Source of the DNA: a virus
Virus record (IMG/VR): IMGVR_UViG_3300035698_000969
Span: 1-35,020 of that record
Reading direction: 5' to 3' (one strand)
DNA length: 35,020 bases
Numbering within the stretch: the stretch's first letter is position 1; every line of letters starts with the position of its first letter. Below the pieces are notes generated by a model that did no database searches, was not told the origin of the DNA, and saw only the letters and a program-made list of their open reading frames with translations. A program made the position numbers and the translations under genes. Shown here piece after piece: positions 1,228-34,939 of this stretch.

Positions 1228-2340
1228 ATGGTATCAATCAACGAACGCTTCATGGATTTTCAAGTCGCACAACAAGTGCGTTGGATTCGGCTGCAGAACG
1301 GCGACGCGCGCGAAGCATTGAGGACATTGCGCGCGACGGAGGGAAACCTTAAGACAATCCTGATCAATGCGAACTTGGACGAAGGCAATTTCACTACTGC
1401 CCGTTTAAACGCGTTGCGCATCCAGGTGCAGAACCTCATAAACTCTCTCGAAACGAAATTGACACCGATCCTCGTCGCGAACGTTCGGGAGGCGTCAATA
1501 CTTGCAGCTGGGATCGAGGAGCAAGCATTCATTCGCATATTGCCCGCGGGCGTTGACGTGACGACGCCCAACATAGGCGTTCTACAGACGGCTGCTGTGT
1601 CGTCGCCGTTCAACGGCGCACCGATTGGTGATTGGACGAAAGCGTTCCACAGGTCGTTGACGACGACGGCTTGGAATTCAATCGTCGATGGTATCACGTC
1701 GGGCACACCGACGACCGACCTCGTTCGACAAATGCTCGGGACGAGTGCGAACAGGTTCAAGGATGGAACGTTGCAGGCCCGTCGTCGCGGCCTTGAGGCT
1801 CTCGTCCGAACGTCGATCAATCATGCAACCAATCAAGGCAGGCAGAAGGTATGGGAAAAGAACAACGATCTTTTGAAAGGCGTTCGATGGGTTTCGACCC
1901 TAGACACACGAACAACACCGATCTGCCAGGAACGGGACGGAAAGGTTGGCCCAGTCGTCGATTCCGCAGACTGGTCCCCACCATCGGGCGCGGACCGACT
2001 GGATCCTCCTTTCGCACGTCCGCCCGCGCACATCAATTGCCGATCCACAACTACCGCCATAACGAAGTCGTGGCAGGAGCTTGGGTTTAACGTCAAGGAT
2101 CTACCACCCGGAACTCGTGCGTCTATGAATGGGCAAGTGCCTGGAAATGTGACATACTTCGAGTGGCTGAACCGCCAAGGAGCCAAAACCCAGCGCGAAG
2201 TCGTTGGGCCGACGCGTTACAAATTGTGGAAAGAAGGTGGGATCGCTCCTGACCGCTTTCAGAATGATCTCGGGCGTAGGTTCACGCTCGACGAATTGAA
2301 ACGCAAGACGCCTGAGGCGTTCGAACAAGCAGGACTCTAA
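1228..2340 (+). CDS. MuF-like minor head / head morphogenesis protein
   Basis: Minor capsid protein of the phage Mu F / SPP1 gp7 type, normally bound to the portal inside the head and needed for head assembly or DNA delivery. The 370-residue product has the family's C-terminal signature: W221 then STLDTRTTPIC (around 223-233), ERDGK, and PPAHINCRS (around 266-273), preceded by an alpha-helical region (180-215). ATG 1228 is chosen because the resulting MVSINERF start reads naturally into the helical N-terminus; its ribosome-binding site is weak. A stronger GGGAGAA (1192-1198) lies upstream of an in-frame ATT at 1204, so a non-AUG start is possible. The next gene follows after one base. Portal and terminase genes, usual neighbours, are not in this window. 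Confidence 0.85.
   Translation: MVSINERFMDFQVAQQVRWIRLQNGDAREALRTLRATEGNLKTILINANLDEGNFTTARLNALRIQVQNLINSLETKLTPILVANVREASILAAGIEEQAFIRILPAGVDVTTPNIGVLQTAAVSSPFNGAPIGDWTKAFHRSLTTTAWNSIVDGITSGTPTTDLVRQMLGTSANRFKDGTLQARRRGLEALVRTSINHATNQGRQKVWEKNNDLLKGVRWVSTLDTRTTPICQERDGKVGPVVDSADWSPPSGADRLDPPFARPPAHINCRSTTTAITKSWQELGFNVKDLPPGTRASMNGQVPGNVTYFEWLNRQGAKTQREVVGPTRYKLWKEGGIAPDRFQNDLGRRFTLDELKRKTPEAFEQAGL
1402..1411. repeat. GTTTAAAC palindrome, copy 1
   Basis: CGTTTAAACG inside the MuF-like gene, read there as codons CGT TTA AAC (Arg-Leu-Asn). Leftmost of nine copies; see the finding on this palindrome family. Confidence 0.8.
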
Positions 2341-2341
2341 T

Positions 2342-3337
2342 ATGCCAAGCATCCGACCCTCAACAGCAATCTGGTCAGAAATGGCCGATCTGATTGGCTG
2401 CGACATCCCCGCAATTAAGGCCGTCTTTGAGGTCGAGGCTGCGGGCAAATTCTACACGAGCTCCGGCGCACTCATTCGTCGTTTTGAGCCACATCACTTC
2501 CCACGTCAACATTGGGGTACCCTCGGCTTTACAGTCAAGAAAGGTCAGGCCGCTTGGCGTGCAGCCTTGAAGGTTTCAACGTCACGTCGTCGCACCATGT
2601 TCGATGCGGCCGAGAACATCGACGCAGAGGCGACCTACGACGCGTCCTCCTGGGGTGCTCCGCAGATCATGGGGTTCAACGCTGAACTCGCTGGGTTTGG
2701 TTCTGCCATCGAGATGGTTGACGCGTTCGAGCAGTCAGCAGACGAGCAGATCCGCGCGTTCGTCAACTTCGTTGAGCGTGCAGGGCTCGCGACGCACATG
2801 CGGTCGCAGGACTGGCACGCCTTCGCCTCCGGCTACAATGGCAATGGTCAGGCTACGCACTACGCCGCATTGATCGAGTCGGCCTACCGTCGTCAGTCAG
2901 GCGGACGTCCATCGTCGCCCATTCCGCGTCTGGGCACGCGCAGCGACGCTGTGCGCGACATGCAAGGCATGCTTGCAGCCTTGGAGTACCAAGTGACCCA
3001 GGACGGCGACTTCGGTGCGCAAACCGACGCTGCTGTGCGAGCGTTCCAGGCGGCTGAAGGACTGAAGGTCGATGGTATCGCAGGCGCGACGACGCTCGCC
3101 CGTCTGCAGGAACGCAGTCAGACAACCCTCGTGATCACGCCCGCAGAGGCGCCTGTGACGGTCGCCGACCAGCGCATCGACGCGGTTGTGAAGCACGGGA
3201 CGAGTATTCTCGGATCTGGTGGCGCGGTTGGATTGCTTGCGAGCATCAACGAAACTTCCCAGACGATCATCATTGGCGGCGTGGTCGTGGGCGCAATCAT
3301 CATCGCTGCCATCTGGCTCCTGAAGAAGAAAGGTTAA
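2342..3337 (+). CDS. Endolysin: N-acetylmuramidase + peptidoglycan-binding domain + C-terminal membrane anchor
   Basis: Cell-wall hydrolase for host lysis. Residues about 15-185 match the N-acetylmuramidase family (DUF3380-type): VFEVEAAGK with candidate catalytic Glu32, then RRFEPHHF, WGAPQIMGFN and FASGYNGNGQ. Residues about 194-256 form a PG_binding_1 domain (DAVRDMQGML ... DGDFGAQTDAAVRAFQ ... DGIAGATTLARL). Residues about 308-327 are a strongly hydrophobic segment followed by KKKG, i.e. a C-terminal transmembrane anchor, which most enzymes of this family lack. There is no N-terminal signal peptide. It starts one base after the head gene's stop and ends 3 bases before the exported protein. 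Lysozyme identity is solid; the role of the anchor (tethering, or doubling as a holin-like pore former) is inference. Confidence 0.88.
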   Translation: MPSIRPSTAIWSEMADLIGCDIPAIKAVFEVEAAGKFYTSSGALIRRFEPHHFPRQHWGTLGFTVKKGQAAWRAALKVSTSRRRTMFDAAENIDAEATYDASSWGAPQIMGFNAELAGFGSAIEMVDAFEQSADEQIRAFVNFVERAGLATHMRSQDWHAFASGYNGNGQATHYAALIESAYRRQSGGRPSSPIPRLGTRSDAVRDMQGMLAALEYQVTQDGDFGAQTDAAVRAFQAAEGLKVDGIAGATTLARLQERSQTTLVITPAEAPVTVADQRIDAVVKHGTSILGSGGAVGLLASINETSQTIIIGGVVVGAIIIAAIWLLKKKG

Positions 3338-3340
3338 GAC

Positions 3341-3649
3341 ATGAAGACCTTGCTTGCGACTTTCCCGCTGCTGCTCGGTGCTGCGATGCTACTCGCACAA
3401 CCCGCGGCAGCGCAATCGAACTGCGGCCCGCGCGACGCGGTCGTGGAACGGCTGAGTCAAGCCTACGACGAGACGCGGCAGTCAATCGGGCTGGCTGCGA
3501 ACAACATGGTGGTCGAGACCTGGGCGTCGCTCGACTCGGGCACATGGACGGTGACAGTCACGCGTCCTGACGGCGTGACCTGCCTCGTTGCGTCGGGCGA
3601 CAACTTCCAGCTCGTCGAGGACCTGCCGCCTGAAGGAGACCCGACTTAA
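3341..3649 (+). CDS. Small exported protein, lysis-cassette neighbour
   Basis: 102 residues with a clear Sec signal peptide: MKT, a hydrophobic run (residues 4-19) and an AAAQS cleavage site near residue 25. The mature part has two cysteines (CGPRDAVVERL and VTCLVASG) that could form one disulfide, and a beta-rich centre (SGTWTVTVTRPDG). It probably acts in the periplasm. It directly follows the endolysin, so a lysis role is plausible, but similar small proteins also occur in alphaproteobacterial chromosomes as far as I recall and I know no assigned function. Translation is likely coupled to the endolysin (3-base gap). Confidence 0.75.
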   Translation: MKTLLATFPLLLGAAMLLAQPAAAQSNCGPRDAVVERLSQAYDETRQSIGLAANNMVVETWASLDSGTWTVTVTRPDGVTCLVASGDNFQLVEDLPPEGDPT

Positions 3650-3655
3650 GACCTT

Positions 3656-3707
3656 TTAACTGCTATAACTGAGTGGGTGTCAAGCGTAATGATCGCTAGA
3701 CACCCAC
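3656..3707. promoter_or_regulatory. Degenerate operator-like site and strong hairpin upstream of phoH
   Basis: TTAACTGC-TATAAC (3656-3669) resembles, with a one-base gap, the ATAA-N5-TTATA sites found elsewhere. It is followed by a long inverted repeat: GTGGGTGTC (3673-3681) / GACACCCAC (3699-3707), extended inside by AGCG (3683-3686) / CGCT (3694-3697) around the loop TAATGAT. There is no T-run, so this may be an operator, an RNA leader structure or an RNase site rather than a terminator. Confidence 0.5.
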
Positions 3708-3748
3708 GAGGCCCACCGATAACATCAACCAAATAGGGAGAGCGGTTG

Positions 3749-4513
3749 ATGGGTAGTAACTCGATGCGGAAACAGCGACAAGCAGAACGTAATTGGCAAC
3801 CACCGTACATCGAAACACTCACGCAGAAGCAAGCGACCTACTTGAGGCTACTCAACGATCATGATTGCACGATAGCATCTGGTCCTGCAGGCACAGGCAA
3901 AACATACCTGGCATGCGCATGGGCTGGCTCCCAACTCAAAGCCAAAGAATTTCGCCAGATAATCCTGTCACGACCCAACGTCGGTGTTGGTAAAACGCTC
4001 GGGATGCTTCCTGGTCGACTGGAACAGAAAATTGCACCTTGGGCCCGGCCTTTGGCTGAGGCATTCAAAGTACAAATGGGAGCTAAGCGCTACCAGGAGG
4101 CTGTCACCAAGGACGAGATCAAAATCGAAGCCATTGAACACATCCGCGGGCTGACATTCGACAACGCCTGCATGATCATAGACGAGGCGCAGAACACGAC
4201 TGTCGCTGAGATGAAAGCGTTCCTGACTCGCATCGGCAAGTACACTTCCGTGATCATATCGGGCGACGAGTCACAATCGGACATTCATGCGACACAGAAC
4301 GGGCTGGCTTGGGCAATGCGTGCGCATGAACGAGGATTGGTACCGAGTGTGGGTCATGTGCAATTCGAACACGCAGACGTCGTGCGCTCTGACCTGTGCA
4401 AAGCGTGGGGCCTTGCGTTCGACACGTTGCAAAAAGAGCATCAGCCACAACGCGAAAAGGCTCCCGTGTATCGCGGGAGCCTAACCAAAATCCAGCATGG
4501 TGAAATAATTTAA
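3749..4513 (+). CDS. phoH: PhoH-like P-loop ATPase
   Basis: PhoH-family ATPase, common in marine and soil phages; the biochemical role in infection is not settled (RNA helicase/phosphate-stress links are proposed). 254 residues from ATG 3749, chosen because AGGGAG (3735-3740) lies 8 bases upstream; TTG 3746 and ATG 3764 are alternatives. Walker A GPAGTGKT (45-52), the family motif LSRPNVGVGKTLGMLPG (73-89) and Walker B MIIDEAQN (142-149) are intact, followed by ISGDESQSD (170-178). The C-terminal tail (EHQPQREK...) is basic and extends beyond the ATPase core. The stop codon overlaps the stop of a candidate leftward small gene, so the two converge. Confidence 0.92.
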   Translation: MGSNSMRKQRQAERNWQPPYIETLTQKQATYLRLLNDHDCTIASGPAGTGKTYLACAWAGSQLKAKEFRQIILSRPNVGVGKTLGMLPGRLEQKIAPWARPLAEAFKVQMGAKRYQEAVTKDEIKIEAIEHIRGLTFDNACMIIDEAQNTTVAEMKAFLTRIGKYTSVIISGDESQSDIHATQNGLAWAMRAHERGLVPSVGHVQFEHADVVRSDLCKAWGLAFDTLQKEHQPQREKAPVYRGSLTKIQHGEII

Positions 4514-4647
4514 AACCAAGGATCGTCGTGATCAAATCGGCCATTCATTTCGGCGCGAGTTTCGAGCATCACAGCGATTGAACCGTCCTCGTCAGGGATG
4601 TACTGTTCGTTGTCGCCTACCGAAAGGAGGTGATCCTCATCTAGCAA
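4510..4647 (-). CDS. Possible small acidic protein (45 aa), TTG start
   Basis: A leftward frame open from just after the neighbouring gene's stop down to TAA at 4510-4512. It encodes an acidic, well-behaved peptide ending in RFDHDDPWF, with codon choice like the surrounding genes. The only upstream start is TTG (4645-4647) with GAGG about 8 bases before it. Against it: the start and its ribosome-binding site lie in the hairpin 4647-4670 that also terminates the upstream leftward gene. Not recognised; function unknown. It would be the second gene of the leftward unit. Confidence 0.4.
   Translation of the reverse strand: MLDEDHLLSVGDNEQYIPDEDGSIAVMLETRAEMNGRFDHDDPWF
4623..4636 (+). other. 14-base anti-SD-complementary sequence
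   Basis: AAAGGAGGTGATCC, complementary to the 3' tail of bacterial 16S rRNA over its full length, lies in the 3' region of phoH, with no gene start following it. The leftward strand correspondingly copies the 16S tail. It may be a chance product of the small leftward frame. Confidence 0.6.
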
Positions 4648-4670
4648 AGGAGCGCCTCGCGGCGCTCCTT
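4647..4670. terminator. Bidirectional terminator between phoH and leftward gene
   Basis: Perfect 10-bp stem AAGGAGCGCC (4647-4656) / GGCGCTCCTT (4661-4670) with a 4-base loop; T-rich CTTCGTTCGTTT follows on the + strand. It lies between convergent transcription units and may serve both. Confidence 0.7.
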
Positions 4671-4678
4671 CGTTCGTT

Positions 4679-5149
4679 TCAGCGTACCTTGATCAAGGTG
4701 CGAGCGTGCAGGCACTGGACGTTGTAGCCACCGGCCAGAATCGTGCGGATCGTGACGACGTGACCTGCGACGTTGAACGTGCCTTCCATCCCGTCAGACG
4801 TTTCGATCAGGACGAACTCAGGCAGCTCAGTCACACCGACTTTCGCGAGCGCCTTGACGATCTGCGCGTCGCGACGCGCAATCATTGCCTCGACGTTCTT
4901 CGCAACCGCAGCTTTGATCCCATTCTCGGAACCGTGCGCGATGATCCCGTACCAACCTTTACCACCGCACAGGTCCATCTCGTGCTGGCAAGTGATCGAC
5001 GAGCCCCACTTCATCGCGCGGTGCGTTTTGTACTCGTCGGATGCGCGGTAGTCGAGGACCTTCGCCTTGCGGCCCATCGCCCAAGCGGTCTGACGCTCAA
5101 GGATCTTTGCGTTCAGTGAGGCGAAGGCGTTGTTGATCTGGTTTTGCAT
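4679..5149 (-). CDS. Conserved-looking phage protein of unknown function (leftward)
   Basis: 156 residues beginning MQNQINNAF. The start at 5149 is preferred over an upstream ATG at 5203 because it has ACGGAG in front and lies downstream of a well-formed promoter (5195-5223). The N-terminal third is helical and basic (AKILERQTAWAMGRKAKVLDYR); the middle has two cysteines near TCQHEMDLCGGKGW (possible metal site) and the C-terminal half looks like alternating beta strands (EFVLIETSDGMEG, HVVTIRTILAGGYNVQ). I recognise no named family. It is one of only two leftward units in the window and has its own operator-bearing promoter, so it is probably early expressed or regulatory; that is inference. 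Confidence 0.8.
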   Translation of the reverse strand: MQNQINNAFASLNAKILERQTAWAMGRKAKVLDYRASDEYKTHRAMKWGSSITCQHEMDLCGGKGWYGIIAHGSENGIKAAVAKNVEAMIARRDAQIVKALAKVGVTELPEFVLIETSDGMEGTFNVAGHVVTIRTILAGGYNVQCLHARTLIKVR

Positions 5150-5186
5150 GTCGGTCTCCGTTGATTGAGGCAACAACCCGCTGCCA

Positions 5187-5223
5187 ATAACTGAGTTATA
5201 CACGAGGTTGTTCGCATCGTAAA
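5187..5223 (-). promoter_or_regulatory. Promoter with ATAA-N5-TTATA operator-like site for the leftward gene
   Basis: Reading leftward: -35 TTTACG (5218-5223), 17-base spacer, -10 TATAAC (5195-5200). The -10 is part of ATAACTGAGTTATA (5187-5200), a near-palindrome shared with four other sites. A protein bound there would block the -10 region. Confidence 0.65.
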
Positions 5224-5238
5224 CACCTTATTTTTAGG

Positions 5239-5275
5239 ATAAGCGAGTTATAGCATCTACGATAAGTCGCTTGAG
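5239..5275 (+). promoter_or_regulatory. Operator-like site pair upstream of the scaffold gene
   Basis: ATAAGCGAGTTATA (5239-5252) and a second copy sharing its first 11 bases with the 9824 site, ATAAGTCGCTTGAG (5262-5275). An extra half site CTTAT (5227-5231) faces the first. TATAGC (5249-5254) could be a -10, but no good -35 is seen. Together with the leftward promoter this makes the 5150-5368 gap a divergent control region. Confidence 0.5.
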
Positions 5276-5368
5276 AAGGGACGTCACACCTTCTATCTTC
5301 CTCGTAGACCGATAACCTCGAGAGCCTCGAGAACGTGTCACGGCAGAAGCCGAAGAAAGGACTATCCT

Positions 5369-6151: not shown

Positions 6152-6172
6152 CACTAAACCCAAAGCCGCGTT

Positions 6173-6199
6173 AATGCGCGGTCCTATGAACCGCGCATT
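6173..6199 (+). terminator. Hairpin between scaffold and capsid genes
   Basis: Perfect 10-bp stem AATGCGCGGT (6173-6182) / ACCGCGCATT (6190-6199), 7-base loop, no T-run. More likely an RNA-processing or stabilising hairpin that sets capsid versus scaffold mRNA levels than a full terminator. Confidence 0.55.
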
Positions 6200-6229
6200 C
6201 GCGCAACAAGCCATCGAAAGGAAATTCCA

Positions 6230-7456: not shown

Positions 7457-7470
7457 GTGAATGATTAAGG

Positions 7471-7488
7471 CGGGCGCTTCGGCGCCCG
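7471..7488 (+). terminator. UUCG-tetraloop hairpin after capsid gene
   Basis: CGGGCGC-TTCG-GCGCCCG, a 7-bp GC-rich stem closed by the very stable C(UUCG)G loop. The downstream bases are not T-rich, so read-through or 3'-end protection of capsid mRNA is likely. Confidence 0.65.
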
Positions 7489-7527
7489 TCACATTCGCAC
7501 AATCCCGACTCAGAAAGGACCATCCCG

Positions 7528-7794: not shown

Positions 7795-7803
7795 GCGCGA
7801 CCA

Positions 7804-7813
7804 CGTTTAAACG
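7804..7813. repeat. GTTTAAAC palindrome, copy 2
   Basis: CGTTTAAACG in the intergenic gap, four bases before the stem of the terminator at 7817-7846. Confidence 0.8.
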
Positions 7814-7816
7814 ACG

Positions 7817-7846
7817 AGGGCGCGCCATCATGGTGCGCCCTTATTT
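7817..7846 (+). terminator. Rho-independent terminator of the capsid block
   Basis: Stem AGGGCGC(G)CCA / TGG(T)GCGCCCT (7817-7827 / 7831-7841, one G-U pair) with a 3-base loop, followed by TATTT. Confidence 0.75.
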
Positions 7847-11208: not shown

Positions 11209-11618
11209 CGTATGCAGTAGCACATAAAGCGATCCGGCAACGGTTCGAAACACAATGGGGAGCGACCACAGCGGTCCAATACCCAAACAAGTCTTTCACC
11301 ATCCCGGAGTCATCCTGGGTGCGTTTAAACATCGCGAGCGCTGCTGCCGATTGGGTATCGTTTGGCGATCCAGGAAACAACACCGAAAGGAATTTCGGTC
11401 AGGTCACCGTCAACATCTTCACCCCTTCGGGTGGCGGCGAAGGCGATGGCATAGAGTTTGCTGATCAGGTTCGGTCTGTGTTCCGCTCGTGGCGAGATGT
11501 TACTTCAGGCGTGAGGTTTTTGGTACCTCCTTACGCTCGCCAGATCGGCATTGACGATACCGGAAATTGGTACCAGATAAATGTTGTCGCACCATTCCAG
11601 TTCGACGACTTCACCTAA
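11205..11618 (+). CDS. Tail terminator-like protein (DUF4128-like)
   Basis: 137 residues. MTYAVAHKAIRQRFETQWG, the PESSWVRLNI strand, NFGQVTVNIFTPSGGGEGDG and the late VVAPFQFDDFT strand match small tail-completion proteins (lambda gpU fold / DUF4128 type), which cap the tail tube to stop polymerisation. Position directly before the tube gene supports this. It contains one GTTTAAAC palindrome. Confidence 0.75.
   Translation: MTYAVAHKAIRQRFETQWGATTAVQYPNKSFTIPESSWVRLNIASAAADWVSFGDPGNNTERNFGQVTVNIFTPSGGGEGDGIEFADQVRSVFRSWRDVTSGVRFLVPPYARQIGIDDTGNWYQINVVAPFQFDDFT
11322..11331. repeat. GTTTAAAC palindrome, copy 3
   Basis: CGTTTAAACA inside the tail-terminator gene, again read as CGT TTA AAC. 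Confidence 0.8.
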
Positions 11619-16710: not shown

Positions 16711-17851
16711 TGCAGATGTTTTTGACCTCCGCCCAGAAGTACCCGTATCCGAGCAATGGGAATTTCTTACGGACGTGATCACAACCTATAACGGAACACA
16801 ATCTAGGTTGTCGCTTTCTGAACGCCCCCGCGTATCAATGGATCTAAGCTTTTCTGCTGTGTCCCAGGAAGATCGTGTGTCGTTGTACCACACTTTATCA
16901 CAGGCAATCCTTACCGAGTATGCAGTTCCACACTTTCAATATGCTGCACCATTGACGGCAGACGCAGCGTCTGGTCAAGCACGCGTGTATTTCGACACAG
17001 CGTTGACCAACATGCGTGCAGGACAGGAAGCCGTCCTGTATAACGACGCAACAGGCGCGACCGAGAAGCTGACCGTGTTAACAGTCGAGACAGACGGTGC
17101 GACGTTTTCGGCCAACCTGGCCAACAGTCAAGCAACAGGTGTGTTCTGCTTGCCTGCACCAACCTGTGTTATTCGTGATGGTAGTTCGATGACTTTCGGT
17201 CGCAATGCGGGGAGTGTGTCAGTCAATATTGAACCAGTCGAGCAGTGGGACCTTGAGCGTCCTGATTCCGCGTTGTCTTTGACCACTTTCGATTCTTTGA
17301 ATGTGCTCGACAAAGTAATGAGGGGTAAGACTACAGAAGCATTCTCTTATCGTCGCGAGATGTTGGATTCTGGTGTTGGTTTGATCACCGCAAAATCTCG
17401 AGATAATTGGCTGCGCATAAACCGAAGCGTGGTGTTCGAGGCGTCACGATCTGCTGGCGAGCTAGATTACTGGCGACTGTTCTTTGCGACCGTCCGCGGC
17501 GGTCAGGTGTCTTTCCTCTTGTCAACGCAATTGAAAGATCTGACTTTAACTTCGACGCCTAGTGTAGATGCGACTGTCCTTCAAATTGACCAGCCGTCCT
17601 ACGTCACCTACCTATTCCCCAACAACGCGTTTAAACGGGTTGCGTTGGAATATGGTGATGGAACAGCAACGTCTTATCACACCGTTGATAGCGCGACTAC
17701 TACTTCTATTACATTGGGTTCCGAAATATCGTCCACCTCAATAAGTAAGGTTTCATTCTTGCAACGAGTTCGGGCAGCCGATAGTATTAGGCTTGAGCAT
17801 TACCAAGACATCACCGAGGTGAAGTTTTCGGTTAAGACGATGGAGAACTAA
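16703..17851 (+). CDS. Distal tail protein-like structural protein
   Basis: 382 residues following the tape measure with an 8-base overlap. The opening (EQWEFLTDVITTYNGTQSRLSLSERPRVSMDLSF is reached by residue 50) has the W-L-T-D-V...R-L-S...PR pattern of tail-tip proteins that start with a Dit-like domain. The C-terminal part (LEHYQDITEVKFSVKTME) fits a strand returning to the hub. No catalytic motif. Base composition starts to fall here relative to upstream genes. Role as the ring between tube and hub is inferred from order. Confidence 0.65.
   Translation: MADADVFDLRPEVPVSEQWEFLTDVITTYNGTQSRLSLSERPRVSMDLSFSAVSQEDRVSLYHTLSQAILTEYAVPHFQYAAPLTADAASGQARVYFDTALTNMRAGQEAVLYNDATGATEKLTVLTVETDGATFSANLANSQATGVFCLPAPTCVIRDGSSMTFGRNAGSVSVNIEPVEQWDLERPDSALSLTTFDSLNVLDKVMRGKTTEAFSYRREMLDSGVGLITAKSRDNWLRINRSVVFEASRSAGELDYWRLFFATVRGGQVSFLLSTQLKDLTLTSTPSVDATVLQIDQPSYVTYLFPNNAFKRVALEYGDGTATSYHTVDSATTTSITLGSEISSTSISKVSFLQRVRAADSIRLEHYQDITEVKFSVKTMEN
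17628..17637. repeat. GTTTAAAC palindrome, copy 4
   Basis: CGTTTAAACG inside the distal tail gene, here in a different frame (GCG TTT AAA CGG, Ala-Phe-Lys-Arg). Confidence 0.8.
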
Positions 17852-23924: not shown

Positions 23925-24317
23925 ATGATGGTAGTAACTTTTTTATCTAGGTTTGTGTTTGGCACAGTGATCAAGCGTTTTGTATCGTTGCTGCCTGGGC
24001 AGATCTGGGCGGCTCTTGCGGTAGTCATTGTTTTGGGGGCGAGTGCGTGGTATATCAACGACCGCGCGTATGACCGCGGTTTCGCTGAGGCTGACGCTCA
24101 ATGGCGTGTCGTCGTGATCGAAGAGCGAGAACGCCAGTCAGAGGCGAATGAACAAGCGGCCAAGCTGGCCAAGCAAACCATTGCTCGTTTAAACGAGGCT
24201 AAAGGAGTTCGAGATGCAACGATTGCACGACTGGAGCGGGAAGCTGCTCAGGACGTTGATGCTGGTCGGGTCGCTATCGGTTCTGGCAGCGTGCGCCGGC
24301 TCAATCAAGTCGATTGA
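23925..24317 (+). CDS. Rz: i-spanin (Rz-like)
   Basis: Inner-membrane subunit of the spanin complex that fuses inner and outer membranes in the last step of lysis. 130 residues: an N-terminal transmembrane helix (about 25-45, IWAALAVVIVLGASAWYI) then a long Ala/Glu/Arg-rich coiled coil (RGFAEADAQWRVVVIEERERQ ... ATIARLERE). AGAGGG lies 8 bases before ATG 23925. The o-spanin starts inside it in another frame, the classic overlapping architecture. Confidence 0.85.
   Translation: MMVVTFLSRFVFGTVIKRFVSLLPGQIWAALAVVIVLGASAWYINDRAYDRGFAEADAQWRVVVIEERERQSEANEQAAKLAKQTIARLNEAKGVRDATIARLEREAAQDVDAGRVAIGSGSVRRLNQVD
24184..24197. repeat. GTTTAAAC palindrome, copy 5 (14-bp palindrome)
   Basis: CTCGTTTAAACGAG inside the i-spanin gene (CGT TTA AAC codons), ending four bases before the AAAGGAG ribosome-binding site of the o-spanin. 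Confidence 0.8.
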
Positions 24318-24531
24318 CGGCGGGCCTCAGCTCGACTCAATACCCAATGGACTGACGAACAAATGTGCTCGGCCAATTGTTCTGCCTGATCGTGCGTTGA
24401 CACAAGCGGAAGTCGAGTCATATTGGCTGCGTGATCGAGCAAACCTTGTGGCTTGTGGACTGTCACGCGATGCGATTTTGGAATGGTACGAGAAACGGGA
24501 TGCGCTGATCAGCGGATCGCCACAGGCTTAA
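24214..24531 (+). CDS. Rz1: o-spanin lipoprotein (Rz1-like)
   Basis: Outer-membrane lipoprotein partner of the i-spanin. 105 residues with a type II signal peptide: basic start, hydrophobic core and lipobox LAAC (Cys27). AAAGGAG (24201-24207) is 6 bases before ATG. It overlaps the i-spanin by 104 bases in the +1 frame and extends beyond it. The mature part is longer than in lambda (about 79 residues) and has two more cysteines (NKCARPIVLP, LVACGLSRD). Its 3' end overlaps the convergent HTH gene by 23 bases. Confidence 0.85.
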   Translation: MQRLHDWSGKLLRTLMLVGSLSVLAACAGSIKSIDGGPQLDSIPNGLTNKCARPIVLPDRALTQAEVESYWLRDRANLVACGLSRDAILEWYEKRDALISGSPQA

Positions 24532-24706
24532 CCTCACGTAATCTTTTGATCGCTGCGTCCAGTAGCACGTCAACGTGCTCAGGAATCTTTTGGCGCTTGT
24601 TCCGGTAATTCGAAATGCTTTGCGGCGTTTTGCGTAGGTGGCTCGCCATCTTGGCATTGGTCCACCCGAGCGCTGACTGCCGACGTTTAAACTCGTCTGG
24701 TGTCAT
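24509..24706 (-). CDS. Small helix-turn-helix regulator (XRE-like)
   Basis: 65 residues, nearly all one HTH domain: TPDEFKRRQSALGW (helix 1), TNAKMASHLRK (helix 2), TPQSISNYRNKRQ (recognition helix), IPEHVDVLLDAAIKRL. AAAAGGA precedes the ATG. An operator-like ATAA-N5-TTATA site lies 33 bases upstream of its start, so autoregulation is likely, and it is divergent from the early operon starting at 25025. Candidate master regulator of the sites at 5187, 5239, 9824, 24739 and 33995. No dimerisation domain is visible, so it may act as a small Cro-like dimer. Confidence 0.8.
   Translation of the reverse strand: MTPDEFKRRQSALGWTNAKMASHLRKTPQSISNYRNKRQKIPEHVDVLLDAAIKRLREVKPVAIR
24684..24693. repeat. 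GTTTAAAC palindrome, copy 6
   Basis: CGTTTAAACT near the 5' end of the HTH gene, read leftward as GAG TTT AAA CGT. Confidence 0.8.
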
Positions 24707-24738
24707 GTCGGGTCCTTTTCGGTTGATGTAGTGATAGC

Positions 24739-24752
24739 ATAAGCGATTTATA
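24739..24752 (-). promoter_or_regulatory. ATAA-N5-TTATA site in the HTH gene promoter
   Basis: ATAAGCGATTTATA; leftward it supplies a -10-like TATAAA (24747-24752). No good -35 at the expected distance, so expression may need an activator or be weak. Confidence 0.6.
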
Positions 24753-25864: not shown

Positions 25865-27636
25865 TCCAGGTTTACGTCGAAAACGCGCATGGGATCGTTG
25901 AGGGGCTTGACTATGATCAGTCACGCGCCTTCGGTGATCGTTTAAACACGGAGATCAATTATCAAGGTAATCGGATCAAGTTCATGCCTACACGTTTTGC
26001 GCTTGACCTGATCGTTGCCGAATACGGTCGCGACGTGTTCCATCCTGGGTGTCGTTTCGCGTGGGCCCATCACTACAAAGACAAGCCAAAGCAAGAAGTC
26101 GAATTTGAATGGGTGACCAAGCCTTACGATCATCAACGCGAGTGGTGGTCGCTGATCAAAGACATGCCTTACTTTGCGCTCGAATGGGAAATGGGTCTTG
26201 GCAAAACGAAAACGATCCTGGACGTATGCCAGTGGGCATATACGAAAGGCGAGCTAGACGCGCTCCTCGTAGTCACATTGAACGGCGTTCACCGCAAGTG
26301 GGTCGAGAAAGAAGTCCCTGCACACTTCCCGAAAGGCAAAGCCGACGCCGCATTCTGGAATACCAACATCGTTGACGCAGGAATGTGGACGGGCGAGAAC
26401 GCACGCAATCGGACGTCGATTGTAGACAGCGAGAAGTTCGCCGTAGCGACCATAAACTTTGAATCGGTGCACCGCAAGAGAGGTCTCAAATTCTGCGAGC
26501 GTTTCCTGCGATCACGGAAGTGCGCTATCGTCGTTGACGAGTCGCAGTATATGAAGACCCCTGGTGCCGCTGTCACGAAGGCCCTTCTGAACAAACTCAA
26601 GAAGCTTGCCGAACGTCGTTGGATCACAACGGGAACAATGTCCACGGGATCGACGCTCGATCCTTGGTCCCAGTATTCGTTCCTGGATTCGAACATCGTT
26701 GACAACATGAAATTCCACCAGTGGAAGGCCGAGTTCGCAGAAGAGGAACAGGTGGGCAACCTAACTTTTGAGGCTTGGGAATACAACGCATTCTTGAAGA
26801 CATCGACGAAGGTGCTCAAGCCGGTCATGACGGTGACGGGTTTCAAGAACGAAGAAAAGCTCTGCAAGATGCTCGACCCATTCAGGTCGCGTCTGTTGAA
26901 AGAGGACTGCCTCGACCTGCCGCCGAAGATATATCGGATGCGCTCGTTCCAGCTGTCCGAAAACATGCACCGCGCCTACATACAAATGTCGAAGCAATTC
27001 CTGGTAGACATCAAGGGTGGTCAAACGATGACCGCGAAGATGGCAATGACCAAGATGGTGCGCCTGTCGCAGATCGCGCAAGGATACGTCGTGCCCGACG
27101 ACGCCGACCCATTGGACGAGAACGTCCCAGGCATCGCACTCGACGAAAAGAACCCACGCATCGAAGCATTGATGCAGGAAATGGAAAAGGTGCGGAACAA
27201 AGGCATCATCTGGTCCTACGCTCGATACTCGTTGCGGGAGCTCGCGATTGCGTTGCGCACGGCATATGGTGACGAGTCGGTCGTTGAATATCACGGCGGA
27301 GTCTCACCCGATCAGAAGGCACGCAATCTTGACTTGTTCAAAGAAGACAAGACGCGTTGGTTCCTGGGCAACCCTATGTCGGGCGGCGTCGGTATAGACC
27401 TGGTCGAGGCCGATCAGATGGCCTACTACAATAATTCATTCAACCTGGGTTTGCGCTTGCAATCAGAAGACAGGTTTCATCGCATCGGACAGGAGTCAGA
27501 TTCATGCACCATAACTGACATTGAAGCCCTTGGCACGATTGATCGACCACAGTTGCGCGCCTTGAAAGAGAAGCGCGATGTAGCAGGGAAAATCTCAGGA
27601 GACATCCTTAGATCGTGGTTGACCGAAGTAATCTAA
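25861..27636 (+). CDS. SNF2-type DEAD/DEAH helicase/translocase
   Basis: 591-residue SF2 ATPase of the SNF2-like group common in phage replication modules. Seen: KPYDHQREWW (88-97, Q-like motif), Walker A EMGLGKTKT (110-118), motif II VVDESQ (224-229), motif III TGTMS, and C-terminal motifs GIIWSYARYSLREL, SGGVGIDLVEADQM and QSEDRFHRIGQ (motif VI). The N-terminal 85 residues are a phage-specific region. ATGA overlap with thyX implies coupling. Likely roles are replication fork remodelling or recombination. Confidence 0.9.
   Translation: MIQVYVENAHGIVEGLDYDQSRAFGDRLNTEINYQGNRIKFMPTRFALDLIVAEYGRDVFHPGCRFAWAHHYKDKPKQEVEFEWVTKPYDHQREWWSLIKDMPYFALEWEMGLGKTKTILDVCQWAYTKGELDALLVVTLNGVHRKWVEKEVPAHFPKGKADAAFWNTNIVDAGMWTGENARNRTSIVDSEKFAVATINFESVHRKRGLKFCERFLRSRKCAIVVDESQYMKTPGAAVTKALLNKLKKLAERRWITTGTMSTGSTLDPWSQYSFLDSNIVDNMKFHQWKAEFAEEEQVGNLTFEAWEYNAFLKTSTKVLKPVMTVTGFKNEEKLCKMLDPFRSRLLKEDCLDLPPKIYRMRSFQLSENMHRAYIQMSKQFLVDIKGGQTMTAKMAMTKMVRLSQIAQGYVVPDDADPLDENVPGIALDEKNPRIEALMQEMEKVRNKGIIWSYARYSLRELAIALRTAYGDESVVEYHGGVSPDQKARNLDLFKEDKTRWFLGNPMSGGVGIDLVEADQMAYYNNSFNLGLRLQSEDRFHRIGQESDSCTITDIEALGTIDRPQLRALKEKRDVAGKISGDILRSWLTEVI
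25939..25948. repeat. GTTTAAAC palindrome, copy 7
   Basis: CGTTTAAACA inside the SNF2-type gene, read as CGT TTA AAC. Confidence 0.8.
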
Positions 27637-28574: not shown

Positions 28575-28600
28575 CCACCCGCCATAAAAGGAGACCTTAA

Positions 28601-29485: not shown

Positions 29486-29499
29486 GAAATAGACGGTGG

Positions 29500-29511
29500 G
29501 CGTTTAAACGC
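29500..29511. repeat. GTTTAAAC palindrome, copy 8 (12-bp palindrome)
   Basis: GCGTTTAAACGC, intergenic, 15 bases after the stop of the SSB-like gene. Confidence 0.8.
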
Positions 29512-29613
29512 TCCTGACTCACAGGGAAAGCACAGCCCATAGATCGAACGCGACGTACCACGCTGTTAGTAGTGAAAGTCCAAGGAACAAAGTGAGGATC
29601 CCGAGAGGGGCGT

Positions 29614-29645
29614 GCGACTAGAACCTGGTCGTCAATAAATTTTAA
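29614..29645 (+). terminator. Weak terminator-like hairpin before primase
   Basis: GCGACTA/TGGTCGT stem with 5-base loop, then CAATAAATTTT; ends just before the AAGGAG of the primase gene, so attenuation is possible. Confidence 0.35.
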
Positions 29646-29662
29646 CGCTTAAGGAGAACGGC

Positions 29663-31417
29663 GTGGCTAAAAGCAATGGAGAACGATTTGCCTATCTGTT
29701 CAGGGGTTACTCTGACAGGTTCGGTCGATACGATCTGTCTGGCAAAACGTCTGAAAAAGGCAAGAATGAGGGCAAGGCGCGAACCGTTGACGAGGAGTTG
29801 ACGCCCGAAGCATACGAACAACACATTCTTGGAAAGATCGGCATCGGCGTGATACCGCTTCGAGCCGACAACCAAGTCAATTTTGCTGCAATAGACATCG
29901 ACGTTTATGCGAAGGACGAGCAGAAGAAAAAGAAGCTGACGCACAGCGAAATAGCACTCGCGTTGATGCATACTCCTTTGATCGTCACGCAATCGAAGTC
30001 GATGGGCATCCACGTTTGGCTATTCAGCGAGGAAGGCGTGTCCGCACGTCTCGCTAGCGACTACCTGAACATGCAGGCCGCTGCACTCGGTGTAGCAGGT
30101 ACTGAAATCTTTCCGAAGCAGACCGAACGCGTGTCCGACGAGGACGTAGGCAATTGGATCAACCTGCCATATTTCGGTGACGCACGAAAAGCCGTGATAC
30201 CAGTCAAGACCGGTTCGACTGTCGAATATGTAGAATTTGAGCTTGAGGCTTTCCTGGACGTTGCGCTCAGCTCCGAGGTCGCAGGAAAAGTGACCGACGA
30301 CTATTTGATCGAGCACACCAAGCTCGAACCCACGCAACGAAACGGCGGCGAAGAAACCAAGCTATGGTTTGATGGGCCTCCTTGCCTGCAGGCATTGATT
30401 GCGGGCCACCCAGAAAGGCGTGCTGAGATCAACAAGTCGTTTGACCGCGGCAAGATCACCGAGGATCAACGCGACAAGCAACTCGCTTTCACATACCCGC
30501 AGCTTGCCGAGGGATCACGCGACAACACGTTCTTCAACGTCGGCATCTACCTTCGTCGTCGAATGAATGAGCACGACACGGACGCCGCATTGGATGGCGA
30601 TTCTCAAAAGCAGTTATTGAAAGACCTGGAGGGTGCGCATGAAACCTGGGGCCAGCGTCTTTATGGAGACGATTGGTCGGACGAAACGTTCAAAAGGAAG
30701 AAAGGAATAGCAGGTGATCTGCCACGTATTGCAAAGCAGGCGGGCAAGGGGAAATGGGGCTACAAATGTACGCAGGAGCCACTCAAAGGTCTCTGTTATC
30801 GACGCAACTGTCTGAAACGAAAGTTCGGTGTGGGCACCGCGATCAACGACACCGCGCGCACAATCACCGGCTTCACCATCGTTGAAACGTCGGACAGGCA
30901 ATACTACCTGAACGTCGGCGACACGCGCATCCATATACCGGACGTTGACTCGTTGATGAACCAGACACTGTTCGGCAAGCTCGTCTTGAACGAAACCGAC
31001 CGCATGTGGATCCTGATGCAGGATGCCAAGTACAAAGAAATGATGGATCAGATGCTTGTTGATGCTGACCGCATCGACGGTCCTCCCGACTCGGATCGAC
31101 GTGCTGTCCTGTTGAACGCGTTGCACGAGTTCGTCCACGAGAAAAGCATTGCCTGGGGCAAGTCTTACGCGGCCATCTTCACAGGTCGAGCCGTATGGAC
31201 AGAAGACAATCTCGAGGCGTGGTTCAAGTTCGATCAGTTTTCGGAATTCCTTCGTGGCAAAGGCATTCAAATCGGAAACAACAAAGTGACGGACATGCTG
31301 ACCAATCAGTTCGGCGTGACGACGCGCGGTAATACCCACATCGGTGGTAGACAAATTCGACCCTATGTCGTTAACCTAGCGCACTTGACTAAGTTGATGG
31401 AGGGGAATGATGGGTAG
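29663..31417 (+). CDS. Archaeo-eukaryotic-type primase (TOTE-like AEP)
   Basis: 584 residues from GTG 29663 (AAGGAG upstream). Primase catalytic pattern: FAAIDIDVY with the metal-binding D78-x-D80, and TQSKSMGIHVWLF with S-x-H (around 111-117), as in TOTE-conflict/herpes-like AEP primases. Downstream, YKCTQEPLKGLCYRRNCLKRKFGVG (cysteines near 371-385) is a zinc-finger-like PriCT segment typical of such proteins. It synthesises primers for phage replication; it may also have polymerase activity. It overlaps the UvrD-type gene by 11 bases. Confidence 0.82.
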   Translation: MAKSNGERFAYLFRGYSDRFGRYDLSGKTSEKGKNEGKARTVDEELTPEAYEQHILGKIGIGVIPLRADNQVNFAAIDIDVYAKDEQKKKKLTHSEIALALMHTPLIVTQSKSMGIHVWLFSEEGVSARLASDYLNMQAAALGVAGTEIFPKQTERVSDEDVGNWINLPYFGDARKAVIPVKTGSTVEYVEFELEAFLDVALSSEVAGKVTDDYLIEHTKLEPTQRNGGEETKLWFDGPPCLQALIAGHPERRAEINKSFDRGKITEDQRDKQLAFTYPQLAEGSRDNTFFNVGIYLRRRMNEHDTDAALDGDSQKQLLKDLEGAHETWGQRLYGDDWSDETFKRKKGIAGDLPRIAKQAGKGKWGYKCTQEPLKGLCYRRNCLKRKFGVGTAINDTARTITGFTIVETSDRQYYLNVGDTRIHIPDVDSLMNQTLFGKLVLNETDRMWILMQDAKYKEMMDQMLVDADRIDGPPDSDRRAVLLNALHEFVHEKSIAWGKSYAAIFTGRAVWTEDNLEAWFKFDQFSEFLRGKGIQIGNNKVTDMLTNQFGVTTRGNTHIGGRQIRPYVVNLAHLTKLMEGNDG

Positions 31418-32927
31418 GCTAAAACCAACCCTGATACTGGGCGGTCCCGGCTGCGGTAAGACCACTGCGTTGCTCAAAATCGTTGAGCAAGCGTTCTCCC
31501 GCGGTGTTGAACCCGAACGGATCGCCTTCGTTGCCTTCACCCGAAAGGCAGCACAAGAAGCGAGGGAGCGCATGGTCGAGAAATTCGGCGTCGAAATTGA
31601 CGCTATTCCATATTTCAGGACCCTGCACTCCTTCGCATTCAAACACATCGACGTGCAACCTGCTCAGATCCTGAGCGGTGAAAAGATGCGCAGTTATGCG
31701 AAGGCCGAGGGCCTACAAATATCGTCCACGTTCTACGACGAGTTCGGTGCGGCGGTGAACACGCCGACGACCGACGACGAGAAAGCCTTGTCAGCGGAAT
31801 CACTGTCACGATTGACTGGCCGCGACCTGGACGAGATCGTCGTTGAGCAAAACCTGAACACAGGCCGCACCCACGAGGTGGTAGCCAACTACAAAGAGTT
31901 CAAAGAGGACGCGATCCTATACGACTTCACGGACATCCTGCAGAAGTTTGTTGACAACGCGACACTACCCGAGTTCGATCTGCTGATTGTTGATGAAGCG
32001 CAGGACCTTTCTATGCTGCAATGGAAGATGGTTCAAAAGCTTGTCGATCATTCGAAGGACGTCTACTTTGCAGGCGACGACGATCAGGCGATCTATGCCT
32101 GGGCAGGAGCCGACATTGAATACTTCCTGAACATGGACGCCGACCGTGAGGTCCTTCCCGTTTCGTATCGTCTGAAACGAGAAGTGTTCGATGCGTGTCA
32201 AAAGGTCATTAAATTTTGCGACGACCGGTATCCGAAAGATTGGCAGCCGCACGCAGAAGGCGGTACCGTAGACTTCACAAACAACTTATCCTCGCTCGAC
32301 ATGAGCGAAGGGTCTTGGTTCCTCCTTGCACGAACAAACAGGCAGCTGGACAAATACATCGCGCACTTGCGAGCAGAGGGGTTTCCTTTCTGGTCGAATG
32401 GAAAGGACGGCCTTTCGTCGTCGATTGACGTTGATCCTGTTCAGGCGGCACTGGTCTACGAAAACCTTCGGAACGGTAAACGTTTCAGCGGAACAAGGAT
32501 GCAAGTGTGTTGGGCCTCAATCAACACGAAGCTCCGGCCCAAAGCGTCGCCTGTATTCGACGCAGAGACCGACTATGGGATCGACGACCTATGCTCGACT
32601 GGATTGGACGCGTCCGCCTCGTGGCTCGACACTCTGCAGATGTCACGCGCAATGGAATCCTATATTCGAATGCTGCGTGCGAACGGCCAAAGCCTGACCA
32701 AGACTCCCACCATAACGGTGTCGACTATCCACGGTGTGAAAGGCGGTGAAGCAGACAACGTCGTGATCTGGCAAAAACTCGGTGGGACCTCCTACAAGAA
32801 TTGGGTAAAGCACGACCCACAAGAAGTGCGTGCCTTATTTACCGCTATGTCCAGGGCGCGGGATCGACTTATATTTCTGGACGCAACAACAGTGAAACAG
32901 TATCACGTAGAAAGGATGCTGCAATGA
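31407..32927 (+). CDS. UvrD/Rep-type SF1A helicase
   Basis: 506 residues. Walker A GGPGCGKTT (12-20), motif Ia VAFTRKAAQEA, motif II IVDEAQDLS (about 193-201), motif III DDDQAIYAWAGA, motif IV VSYR, motif V TIHGVKGGEADNV and motif VI ALFTAMSRARDRL are all present, so it should be an active 3'-5' helicase. It is short for UvrD (about 720), lacking much of the 1B/2B inserts. ATG 31407 with GGAGGGGA upstream; ATG 31410 is equally possible. Coupled to primase and, by ATGA overlap, to the HAD gene. Confidence 0.92.
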   Translation: MMGRLKPTLILGGPGCGKTTALLKIVEQAFSRGVEPERIAFVAFTRKAAQEARERMVEKFGVEIDAIPYFRTLHSFAFKHIDVQPAQILSGEKMRSYAKAEGLQISSTFYDEFGAAVNTPTTDDEKALSAESLSRLTGRDLDEIVVEQNLNTGRTHEVVANYKEFKEDAILYDFTDILQKFVDNATLPEFDLLIVDEAQDLSMLQWKMVQKLVDHSKDVYFAGDDDQAIYAWAGADIEYFLNMDADREVLPVSYRLKREVFDACQKVIKFCDDRYPKDWQPHAEGGTVDFTNNLSSLDMSEGSWFLLARTNRQLDKYIAHLRAEGFPFWSNGKDGLSSSIDVDPVQAALVYENLRNGKRFSGTRMQVCWASINTKLRPKASPVFDAETDYGIDDLCSTGLDASASWLDTLQMSRAMESYIRMLRANGQSLTKTPTITVSTIHGVKGGEADNVVIWQKLGGTSYKNWVKHDPQEVRALFTAMSRARDRLIFLDATTVKQYHVERMLQ

Positions 32928-33523
32928 CTCGACAAATACTCCTAGACGTTGACGACGTTCTCCTGAACTGGATCGGCGGGTTCGCCCAATACGCGGCGAC
33001 ACGATTACAAAATTCGGTGGTTGGACTACCCGACTCCTGGAACATGGGCGAGTGGCTCGGAACGACCAACGAGGCCGCTTTCGAACTGATTGAAGAATTC
33101 AACGTCTCGGTGCATTTCGGACGCCTCGTGTCGGTCGATGGTTCGCAAGACGTCGTCCATCAATGGATGCTCAACGAGTCGATCCGCCTCCATGCGATCA
33201 CGTCCTGCTCGTCAGATCGTGACACGGTGAAGCTGCGCCAAAGCAACCTTGCTCGCGTGTTCGGTCCCGATACATTCGATTCCGTTCACTGTCTCGACCT
33301 CGGGACACCGAAGTTCAAGATCCTTCAGGCTTGGAAGCCAGGCGCGGTCTGGGTGGAAGACAATTACAAGAACGCAATGCTCGGCGTTGAAGCCGGTCAT
33401 ACCGTGTTCATTAGAACGCGCCCGCACAACAAAGAATTCCAAGTCCTGCACGACGACCGCCTGACTTGGTTCGATGAATGGTCGGAACTTGAGGAGCTGA
33501 TTGATGAAATTTCAGTCGACTAA
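32924..33523 (+). CDS. HAD-family phosphatase, 5'(3')-deoxyribonucleotidase-like
   Basis: 199 residues from ATG 32924, chosen for the ATGA overlap and because the longer frame runs back through the helicase gene. HAD motif I LLDVDDV (D8, D10), motif II region ITSCSSDR, and motif IV WVEDNYKNA. This is the pattern of small nucleotidases and of phage enzymes that dephosphorylate dNMPs; with RNR and ThyX nearby it may adjust nucleotide pools. Overlaps the QueD-like gene by 20 bases. Confidence 0.78.
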   Translation: MTRQILLDVDDVLLNWIGGFAQYAATRLQNSVVGLPDSWNMGEWLGTTNEAAFELIEEFNVSVHFGRLVSVDGSQDVVHQWMLNESIRLHAITSCSSDRDTVKLRQSNLARVFGPDTFDSVHCLDLGTPKFKILQAWKPGAVWVEDNYKNAMLGVEAGHTVFIRTRPHNKEFQVLHDDRLTWFDEWSELEELIDEISVD

Positions 33524-33941
33524 AACGTACCAAGACCTCGGTCCTGTCGCGTATCGTCAATGGCGTGCAGACAGTCACTGCAACCTGATCCACGGTTACA
33601 GCCTGTCCTTCAAATTCACGTTTGAATCTGAAGAGCTCGACGTGCGAAACTGGGTCGTTGACTTCGGTGGCCTGCGTGATTTGAAGGAGCTCCTTGAGGA
33701 CAACTTCGATCACACGTTGCTCGTTGCTGAGGATGATCCAGAGATTGAATGGTACCGAGAGGCGCACAAGCGAAAGATCGCGCGTGTCGTTGAATTTCCA
33801 CGCCTTGGATGCGAAGGTATTGCGGACATCGTTTTTGAGTTCACCGAGTATTGGCTCAAGGACAGCTATGGCGGTCGCGTTGCGCTCGTTTCGGTCGAAG
33901 TGATGGAGCACGCGAAGAACTCCGCCTCGCGTGTCAGGTAA
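33504..33941 (+). CDS. queD: QueD-like 6-carboxytetrahydropterin synthase
   Basis: Second step from GTP towards preQ0. 145 residues from ATG 33504 (GAGGAG 7 bases upstream). The active-site Cys26 sits in SHCNLIHGYS, aligned with the C-x-x-x-HGH motif of QueD; D69-H70 in NFDHTLLV and E134 in VEVMEH match the catalytic triad region. The third zinc histidine is Tyr32 (HGY), while His25 lies next to the cysteine. I believe this HGY form recurs in phage homologues, but the metal site must differ from the bacterial enzyme. With queC at the right edge it indicates 7-deazaguanine synthesis. Confidence 0.78.
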   Translation: MKFQSTKTYQDLGPVAYRQWRADSHCNLIHGYSLSFKFTFESEELDVRNWVVDFGGLRDLKELLEDNFDHTLLVAEDDPEIEWYREAHKRKIARVVEFPRLGCEGIADIVFEFTEYWLKDSYGGRVALVSVEVMEHAKNSASRVR

Positions 33942-33970
33942 AAGAATTGCGGTGCAGGTGCATTTTGTGC

Positions 33971-34009
33971 TTGTACCCATATCCCGTTGGATGTATAACT
34001 TGCTTATAG
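33971..34009 (+). promoter_or_regulatory. Sigma-70-type promoter with ATAA-N5-TTATA operator-like site
   Basis: -35 TTGTAC (33971-33976), 17-base spacer, -10 TATAAC (33994-33999). The -10 lies in TATAACTTGCTTATA (33994-34008), fully symmetric in its outer five bases. It drives the small gene at 34026 and possibly the genes beyond. Confidence 0.72.
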
Positions 34010-34025
34010 CAACGGAGCACGAGCC

Positions 34026-34196
34026 ATGACCAAAGCACAGCACATCACCTCGACCGGACGCATCACGAACGTGGAGATCGTGTCCAACAACTACCCGGTT
34101 ATCGTTGTACGTAAGTCTAATGGTTCTGAGTACACCATCAACAACACTAACATGACCGTCGTCGCTTACGAACTCTGCACCATCATCCAAGAGTAA
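34026..34196 (+). CDS. Small early protein (56 aa), unknown
   Basis: Own promoter and an ACGGAG leader 8 bases before the ATG. The peptide is soluble, with strand-like GRITNVEIVSNNYPVIVVRK followed by a short loop SNGSEYTINN and TVVAYELCTIIQE. High expression is likely from the near-consensus promoter. No family recognised; candidate host-takeover or anti-defence protein only by size and position. Confidence 0.7.
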   Translation: MTKAQHITSTGRITNVEIVSNNYPVIVVRKSNGSEYTINNTNMTVVAYELCTIIQE

Positions 34197-34217
34197 CCTC
34201 AACCAACGGAGACTATC

Positions 34218-34841
34218 ATGACCAACCAGTTCATCGCCCACGCCGAAACGCCCCGCACGTTCGCCTCGAAAAAGGGCGCCAATGCGGCTATCAAACGCGA
34301 TCTGTCCAAACATTGGGACGCCCACGGTGACGTTCTTTCTGACACCGGCTTTGACGTGAAAGAATCGGGCGACCAATTCGGCGTCGTCCTGTATTGCGAC
34401 CTGACCGCCGCGTCAGCGCAAAAACTTGTTGGCCCGGAACTTCATGGCTACGTGATCGAACCCCAGCTGAAGGAAGAGCCCGTGAAAGCAAACGCCCCTA
34501 CAACGACTGCTGCCGCGCCCGCGAAAACGTCGCGCCGCAAAGGTCAAATTTCCGTCGATCCGGCTGCGCCCCTCGTGCAATGTCGCGTCGGTTCTAAGCA
34601 ACAAGCCATCATCGACATGCTGAACCGTGATCAGGGCGCGACCATCGCTGACCTGCGCACCGTCTGCATCAAAAAGTCGGGCGGCGTGTGGGACGACAAT
34701 TCGATCCGGTCTGCATTGTATTACGACCTGAAAGACAAAGGCTACGGCACGCGCACCGAGTTCAACGACGACGTTGCGAGCTACTTCCTTGTCCTGCCTG
34801 AAGGCTTCGACGCACCGTTGCCTGCGAAAGCTCCTGATTGA
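34218..34841 (+). CDS. Two-domain protein with C-terminal winged-helix (DUF3489-like)
   Basis: 207 residues. N-terminal domain (about 1-85: FIAHAETPRTFASKKGANAAI, GVVLYCDLTAASAQKL), an Ala/Pro/Lys linker (about 92-112, TTTAAAPAKTSRRKG), then a helical domain (126-190: SKQQAIIDMLNRDQGATIADL, SIRSALYYDLKDKGYG) that resembles DUF3489 winged helices found in alphaproteobacteria. DNA binding is inferred. It lies between queD and queC, has the early CAACGGAG leader and follows the 34026 gene in the same transcript. Confidence 0.7.
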   Translation: MTNQFIAHAETPRTFASKKGANAAIKRDLSKHWDAHGDVLSDTGFDVKESGDQFGVVLYCDLTAASAQKLVGPELHGYVIEPQLKEEPVKANAPTTTAAAPAKTSRRKGQISVDPAAPLVQCRVGSKQQAIIDMLNRDQGATIADLRTVCIKKSGGVWDDNSIRSALYYDLKDKGYGTRTEFNDDVASYFLVLPEGFDAPLPAKAPD

Positions 34842-34886
34842 ACGCTTGCGCGCATTGCGCAGGTTATTGTAATTTAACGAGTACAC

Positions 34887-34920
34887 GGGACGGCCCTCGG
34901 GTCGTCCCATTGTAATTTAA
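34887..34920 (+). terminator. Terminator upstream of queC
   Basis: GGGACGGCC-CTCG-GGTCGTCCC, 9-bp stem with one G-U pair (34887-34895 / 34900-34908), followed by ATTGTAATTT. Confidence 0.65.
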
Positions 34921-34923
34921 CCC

Positions 34924-34939
34924 GCGCGTTTAAACGCGC
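34924..34939. repeat. GTTTAAAC palindrome, copy 9 (16-bp palindrome)
   Basis: GCGCGTTTAAACGCGC, the longest version, between the terminator and the queC ribosome-binding site. Confidence 0.85.

Follow-up and report, generated by a model that had tools for sequence, protein, structure and literature searches.

A dispersed, exact palindromic octamer in Nanhaivirus-like phages and a phage primase as its possible reader

We analyzed a stretch of viral DNA of 35,020 nucleotides (IMG/VR record IMGVR_UViG_3300035698_000969), referred to here as the window, together with the palindromic octamer GTTTAAAC that recurs along it. The record carries no end repeats and is probably a fragment of a larger genome. 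It belongs to a Nanhaivirus-related siphophage whose kin are the Dinoroseobacter phages R5C and R26L and phage Pan1, with coat protein identities of 79-82% to the window. These three are complete relatives with genomes of 72-80 kb.

The octamer in the window and its relatives

An initial sequence-only reading had reported nine copies of GTTTAAAC in the window, each preceded by C and six of them forming a decamer. A recount bore this out, with nine copies found against a dinucleotide-shuffle mean of 0.40 (0 of 100 shuffles reached nine), C at the preceding base in 9 of 9, and six copies reading CGTTTAAACG. The reading frames given for the intragenic copies were also accurate. Four copies encode Arg-Leu-Asn: in a head morphogenesis gene (1403..1410, kept in 7 of 12 aligned relatives), a tail gene (11323..11330, kept in 5 of 13), an Rz-like spanin gene (24187..24194, kept in 3 of 13) and codons 27-29 of a SNF2-type helicase gene (25940..25947, exact in 11 of 13). 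Two encode Phe-Lys-Arg, one in a tail gene (17629..17636, kept in all three aligned relatives) and one at the start of a helix-turn-helix (HTH) gene on the opposite strand (24685..24692). The latter is partly explained by a conserved HTH protein start, MTPxEFKR. The remaining three are intergenic, lying downstream of the coat protein region (7805..7812), upstream of the primase gene (29502..29509) and upstream of queC (34928..34935, kept in 3 of 4 aligned relatives). Other family members also carry a site near the position upstream of the primase gene (Pan1 at 38649, R26L at 38938 and the related contig G017 at 32395), and an R5C site at 55293 falls in the same interval as the copy upstream of queC.

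The first observation was not only correct but understated, as GTTTAAAC is genus-wide in the Nanhaivirus-like group. R26L, R5C and Pan1 carry 20, 17 and 16 copies, respectively, and in these genomes and the window combined no other octamer comes near it in over-representation, with 62 sites against 0.23 expected under an order-2 Markov model. With the record of R5C itself set aside, 17 of the 19 IMG/VR records whose coat protein is close carry the word at about one copy per 2-12 kb. The other two are a 7-kb fragment lacking it and a sister phage, G019, with a single copy in 58 kb. Among more distant coat relatives (40-48%) the count is 0-3. The typical density is about one copy per 4 kb. Neither of the two objections foreseen in the sequence-only reading holds, since shuffling does not reproduce these counts and the sites are present in relatives. 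The open-access literature searched yielded no earlier account of GTTTAAAC in phages.

The word is exact. In every motif-bearing genome its one-mismatch variants occur near chance level. Across 128 distinct sites the base at position -1 is most often C (82%), less often T (16%) or A (2%) and never G, with little signal beyond, and the full site can therefore be written YGTTTAAACR, mostly CGTTTAAACG. The longer palindromes noted earlier (12-16 bp) exist at some sites and are not general, since the 128 sites share only the exact 8 bp and the flanking base.

Selection on the DNA, even spacing and a replaced word

Selection acts on the DNA rather than on the protein, as had been suspected. The number of in-gene copies, 5-13 per genome, exceeds a null that preserves the codons: synonymous-codon shuffles gave means of 0.08-0.23 and maxima of 1-3. 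At the helicase-gene site (window 25940) the word is identical in the 11 relatives that keep it despite local protein identities of about 56-79%, and G019 spells the same residues synonymously, as GCCTGAAC. TTA makes up 5.0% of leucine codons in the window and 0.9-1.5% in R26L, R5C and Pan1; 10 of 27 TTA codons in R26L, 7 of 30 in R5C and 4 of 19 in Pan1 lie within the motif. Other sites are gained and lost between relatives.

Most copies are intragenic and follow no positional rule, although the 4.4% of the sequence that the gene calls leave uncovered holds about 26% of the sites (the calls being approximate). This noncoding excess would suit operators or stoperators of a phage repressor, for example the 65-aa HTH protein encoded on the minus strand at 24509-24706, whose gene is core to the group. 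Against this stand the many copies inside genes rather than in promoter regions, and a separate dyad, TATAAN5TTATA, which in the genomes checked precedes the HTH gene by about 30-50 bp and recurs in further intergenic regions (window 24738-24752, with further dyads at 5186, 5238 and 9823). The HTH protein is probably an autoregulated phage repressor with this dyad as its apparent operator, and it was rejected as the reader of GTTTAAAC because it has its own dyad upstream of its gene. Mycobacteriophage stoperators, which are bound by the prophage repressor, are asymmetric, oriented and mostly intergenic. They resemble the GTTTAAAC set in being many short sites dispersed in a phage genome, whereas GTTTAAAC is palindromic, mostly intragenic and found in phages of which one, R5C, is reported to be lytic. 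R5C lacks integrase and repressor genes (PMC5454422). We consider operator function highly improbable.

Copies are spaced more evenly than random in R26L (P<0.0001), Pan1 (P=0.004), G017 (P=0.009) and R5C (P=0.016). Even spacing is also what might be expected of sites for a DNA-organizing or segregation protein acting along the genome, whether the protein encoded at window 34218-34838 in the que operon or another factor. The gene for this protein is present in all nine group genomes and contigs where the region was examined, and an AlphaFold model of its C-terminal part predicts a helix-helix-helix-hairpin arrangement that is winged-helix-like. However, recognition of GTTTAAAC is exact, unlike that of most binding proteins, and the predicted recognition helix differs strongly in R5C, which carries the same word. 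The protein had no confident PDB or fold match and reached only E=0.85 against its analogue in the comparison phages described below, and it was set aside as the reader. An organizing role for the sites is thus unlikely. The same protein shows a weak DUF3489 match, and an analogous Lys/Ala-rich protein lies beside the que genes of unrelated phages.

The sister phage G019 has replaced the word. It carries 11 copies of GTGTAAAC/GTTTACAC against 0.11 expected, in both orientations, nearly all flanked by C and G and evenly spaced (P=0.009). None of these copies was found where aligned relatives have GTTTAAAC. Because the replacement occupies other positions, the function seems to need a dispersed exact word rather than fixed positions, and its reader seems able to switch specificity. 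A further genome, G046, was considered as an intermediate mixing GTTTAAAC and GTGTAAAC; its extra GTGTAAAC copies lack the C and G flanks and were treated as chance occurrences.

Host genomes, replication genes and comparison phages

In 199 genomes of Rhodobacteraceae, the host family of R5C and R26L, the median count of GTTTAAAC is about 3 (range 0-57), in most cases lower than that of a reversed-word control, and a 190-kb D. shibae plasmid has zero copies. Since these genomes are poor in the word, its reader is phage-encoded. The host protein that the sequence-only reading had allowed for does not fit, and a host-encoded factor and a host Chi or HIP word were rejected on the same grounds. 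HIP1 (GCGATCGC) of cyanobacteria and the alternate HIPs are likewise exact palindromic octamers, grossly over-represented and replaced by another word in some relatives. In contrast to GTTTAAAC, which is confined to phages at about one per 4 kb with no methyltransferase annotated, HIP is cellular, occurs at about one per kb and is tied to methyltransferases. Pan1 (ON968452) is recorded as a cyanobacterial phage, though its relatives infect Dinoroseobacter; alphaproteobacterial 16S reads made up 14.6% of its host culture (PMC9837993), and a check of the host assignment may be worthwhile.

The window encodes an AEP-type primase (29663..31417, plus strand; PF22548 AEP-TOTE, PHROG primase), which we infer to be the reader of GTTTAAAC by analogy with other phages. 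Its profile matches PDB 7nqd/7nqf (E 1.8e-8), a CRISPR-associated primase-polymerase, and AIDIDVY and SGGIHVW-type motifs are seen in the primase alignment. The gene is overlapped by that of a UvrD-type helicase (31407..32927, plus strand; PHROG DNA helicase, with an R26L orthologue matching UvrD-helicase), a possible partner of the primase. Besides an AEP-type primase, the complete relatives have genes for UvrD-type helicases, a sliding clamp, a DNA polymerase I-like enzyme and a Que/FolE/DpdA set. Thus the word occurs in genomes with a primase of the AEP superfamily and, being a palindrome, lies on both strands, with the sites (or their replacements) spread evenly in R26L, R5C, Pan1, G017 and G019.

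We compared phages with primases of the NrS-1 type, an AEP-superfamily phage enzyme for which a short template sequence directs de novo initiation. All 13 genomes with such a primase carry an enriched GTGG-containing octamer (hereafter tag), mostly intragenic and on either strand, as opposed to 0 of 24 genomes without one in which a dispersed GTGG octamer of similar strength was found; the compared genomes are few and kin to each other, and the counts ignore phylogeny. The words are TGTGGTYA, TGTGGGCA and similar, and are often evenly spaced. The tag is TAACCACA in CAjan (47 copies), TGACCACA in JenP1, pVco14, MMDA13 and ART, and TGCCCACA or ACCCACAA in PA73, RcTitan, Kharn and Salmonella S1. 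In the first five, which are Que/DpdA phages, it lies mostly in genes and on both strands, with even spacing in CAjan, JenP1, MMDA13 and ART. The tagged phages have in common a large primase that matches the NrS-1-type helix bundle (PF22763) and DUF3987, as seen in a scan of MMDA13. The tag of a Stenotrophomonas phage is weak unless three variants are pooled, and the match in G037 is a local tandem array. The tags match a known primase site: NrS-1 polymerase recognizes TTTGGTTA and GTGG/GTGA (PMC8718748), and the CAjan word TGTGGTTA contains GTGG and differs from TTTGGTTA at a single base. Octamers of the TRACCACA/TGCCCACA type are dispersed in many siphophages with an NrS-1-type primase, and the open-access literature searched yielded no earlier account of TRACCACA-type phage tags.

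These phages also bear on whether the word could be a modification target, for 7-deazaguanine insertion by DpdA or for a methyltransferase, the latter kind of target having been proposed for cyanobacterial HIP1. A DpdA-like enzyme accompanies FolE and Que genes in each of the three complete relatives, and the link of HIP words to methyltransferases (PMC4390886) also speaks for modification. The tag does not, however, follow the presence or absence of DpdA and Que genes. Mufasa8, ZHS, Sonali and phiSM are Que/DpdA phages without a comparable evenly spaced tag, whereas PA73, RcTitan, Kharn and Salmonella S1 are tagged with no Que genes noted (these genomes were not searched gene by gene). An early link, suggested by the presence of Que genes in genome G041 and throughout the first comparison phages, was thus broken in both directions. 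In CAjan DNA, dPreQ0 replaces about 32% of G (PMC6884629), a load far above what 47 tags could hold, and no methyltransferase is annotated in R26L, R5C or Pan1, among whose hypothetical proteins not all were scanned. Modification is therefore very unlikely. Separately, a distant relative with QueC and FolE (IMGVR_UViG_3300027715_000001) has 25 copies of CCTAGG where about 5-7 are expected, most of them reading CCTAGGCG or CCTAGGTG and most lying on one strand, and IMG/VR record G024 has more than 50 copies of words such as ATAGACCC at almost constant spacing, an apparent tandem array.

A Chi-like role, in which exact octamers switch a phage helicase-nuclease from degradation to recombination, would account for an exact octamer on either strand, in genes and at about one per 4 kb; Chi itself is an exact intragenic octamer at about one per 4-5 kb. 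The phages encode UvrD-type and RecD-like helicases, and a PD-(D/E)XK-like nuclease gene, assigned by reading motifs, is conserved in R5C, R26L and Pan1. Yet Chi is normally enriched in the host, whereas the 199 Rhodobacteraceae genomes are poor in GTTTAAAC, which is moreover palindromic, and there is no sign of a Chi-reading enzyme. The word of the comparison phages fits a known primase site instead, and Rhizobium phage 16-3, which separates the module parts in having a Cas4-like nuclease but no such primase, has no comparable GTGG tag. We regard a Chi-like role as quite unlikely.

A primase initiation site and what it would mean

We favor, with some confidence, the interpretation that the phage's own replicative primase, which is of AEP type, recognizes GTTTAAAC and initiates at it, because the tags of phages with NrS-1-type primases match a known primase site and the window primase falls in the same superfamily. 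Phages with primases related to that of NrS-1 carry octamers closely similar to its sites dispersed through their genomes. The systems differ in that the window primase belongs to another, AEP-TOTE-like family, that its word is an AT-rich palindrome, and that site recognition is proposed by analogy. Among the binding-site functions listed in the sequence-only reading, a replication role gains support, whereas a host factor, ordinary operator control and a modification target do not.

Under primase recognition, each palindromic copy would serve both strands, so that with copies about 4 kb apart each strand would have one strong priming site per ~4 kb. Priming would occur at GTTTAAAC wherever the template is single-stranded. 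Selection would keep the sites dispersed and exact, and they would be tolerated in genes at a rare-codon cost. A change in primase specificity would move the whole set of sites, as may have happened with GTGTAAAC in G019.

Several points weigh against this interpretation. The connection between the primase and GTTTAAAC is drawn from analogy and co-occurrence, and in the comparison phages a Cas4-like nuclease, a helicase and SSB-like and AAA proteins accompany the primase, so that a module, not the primase alone, correlates with the tag. Primases of phages with GTTTAAAC are only about 44-63% identical, yet they share one word. PMBT28, a phage with a second homologue of the window primase, is without a clear tag. 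In vitro, NrS-1 polymerase also accepts GTG, a looser site, but the phage words are exact. Even spacing is non-significant in some genomes (related contig G006, P=0.68) and suggestive in the window (P=0.06) and contig G044 (P=0.10). Another protein of the replication module, or a recombination protein, is a possible reader. In this small, related sample the word may vary with the type of primase: GTGG words follow the NrS-1 type, and GTTTAAAC follows the window type within the genus. A distant homologue of the window primase, in ct3Et, is accompanied by an enriched word of its own, CAGGGAC(T).

More broadly, we judge it an evenly balanced question whether phages with AEP primases generally write their primase word genome-wide as an evenly spaced, exact tag on either strand, with GTTTAAAC being the first such site for the AEP-TOTE-like family, separating phage from host DNA for priming, and with specificity and its switches readable from sequence alone. 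If so, phage word statistics would reveal the initiation sites of unstudied primases, which are otherwise found by laborious biochemistry, and the switch from GTTTAAAC to GTGTAAAC in G019 would provide a natural pair for mapping the primase residues that read the bases. It would also explain how a phage replisome can favor phage over host DNA.

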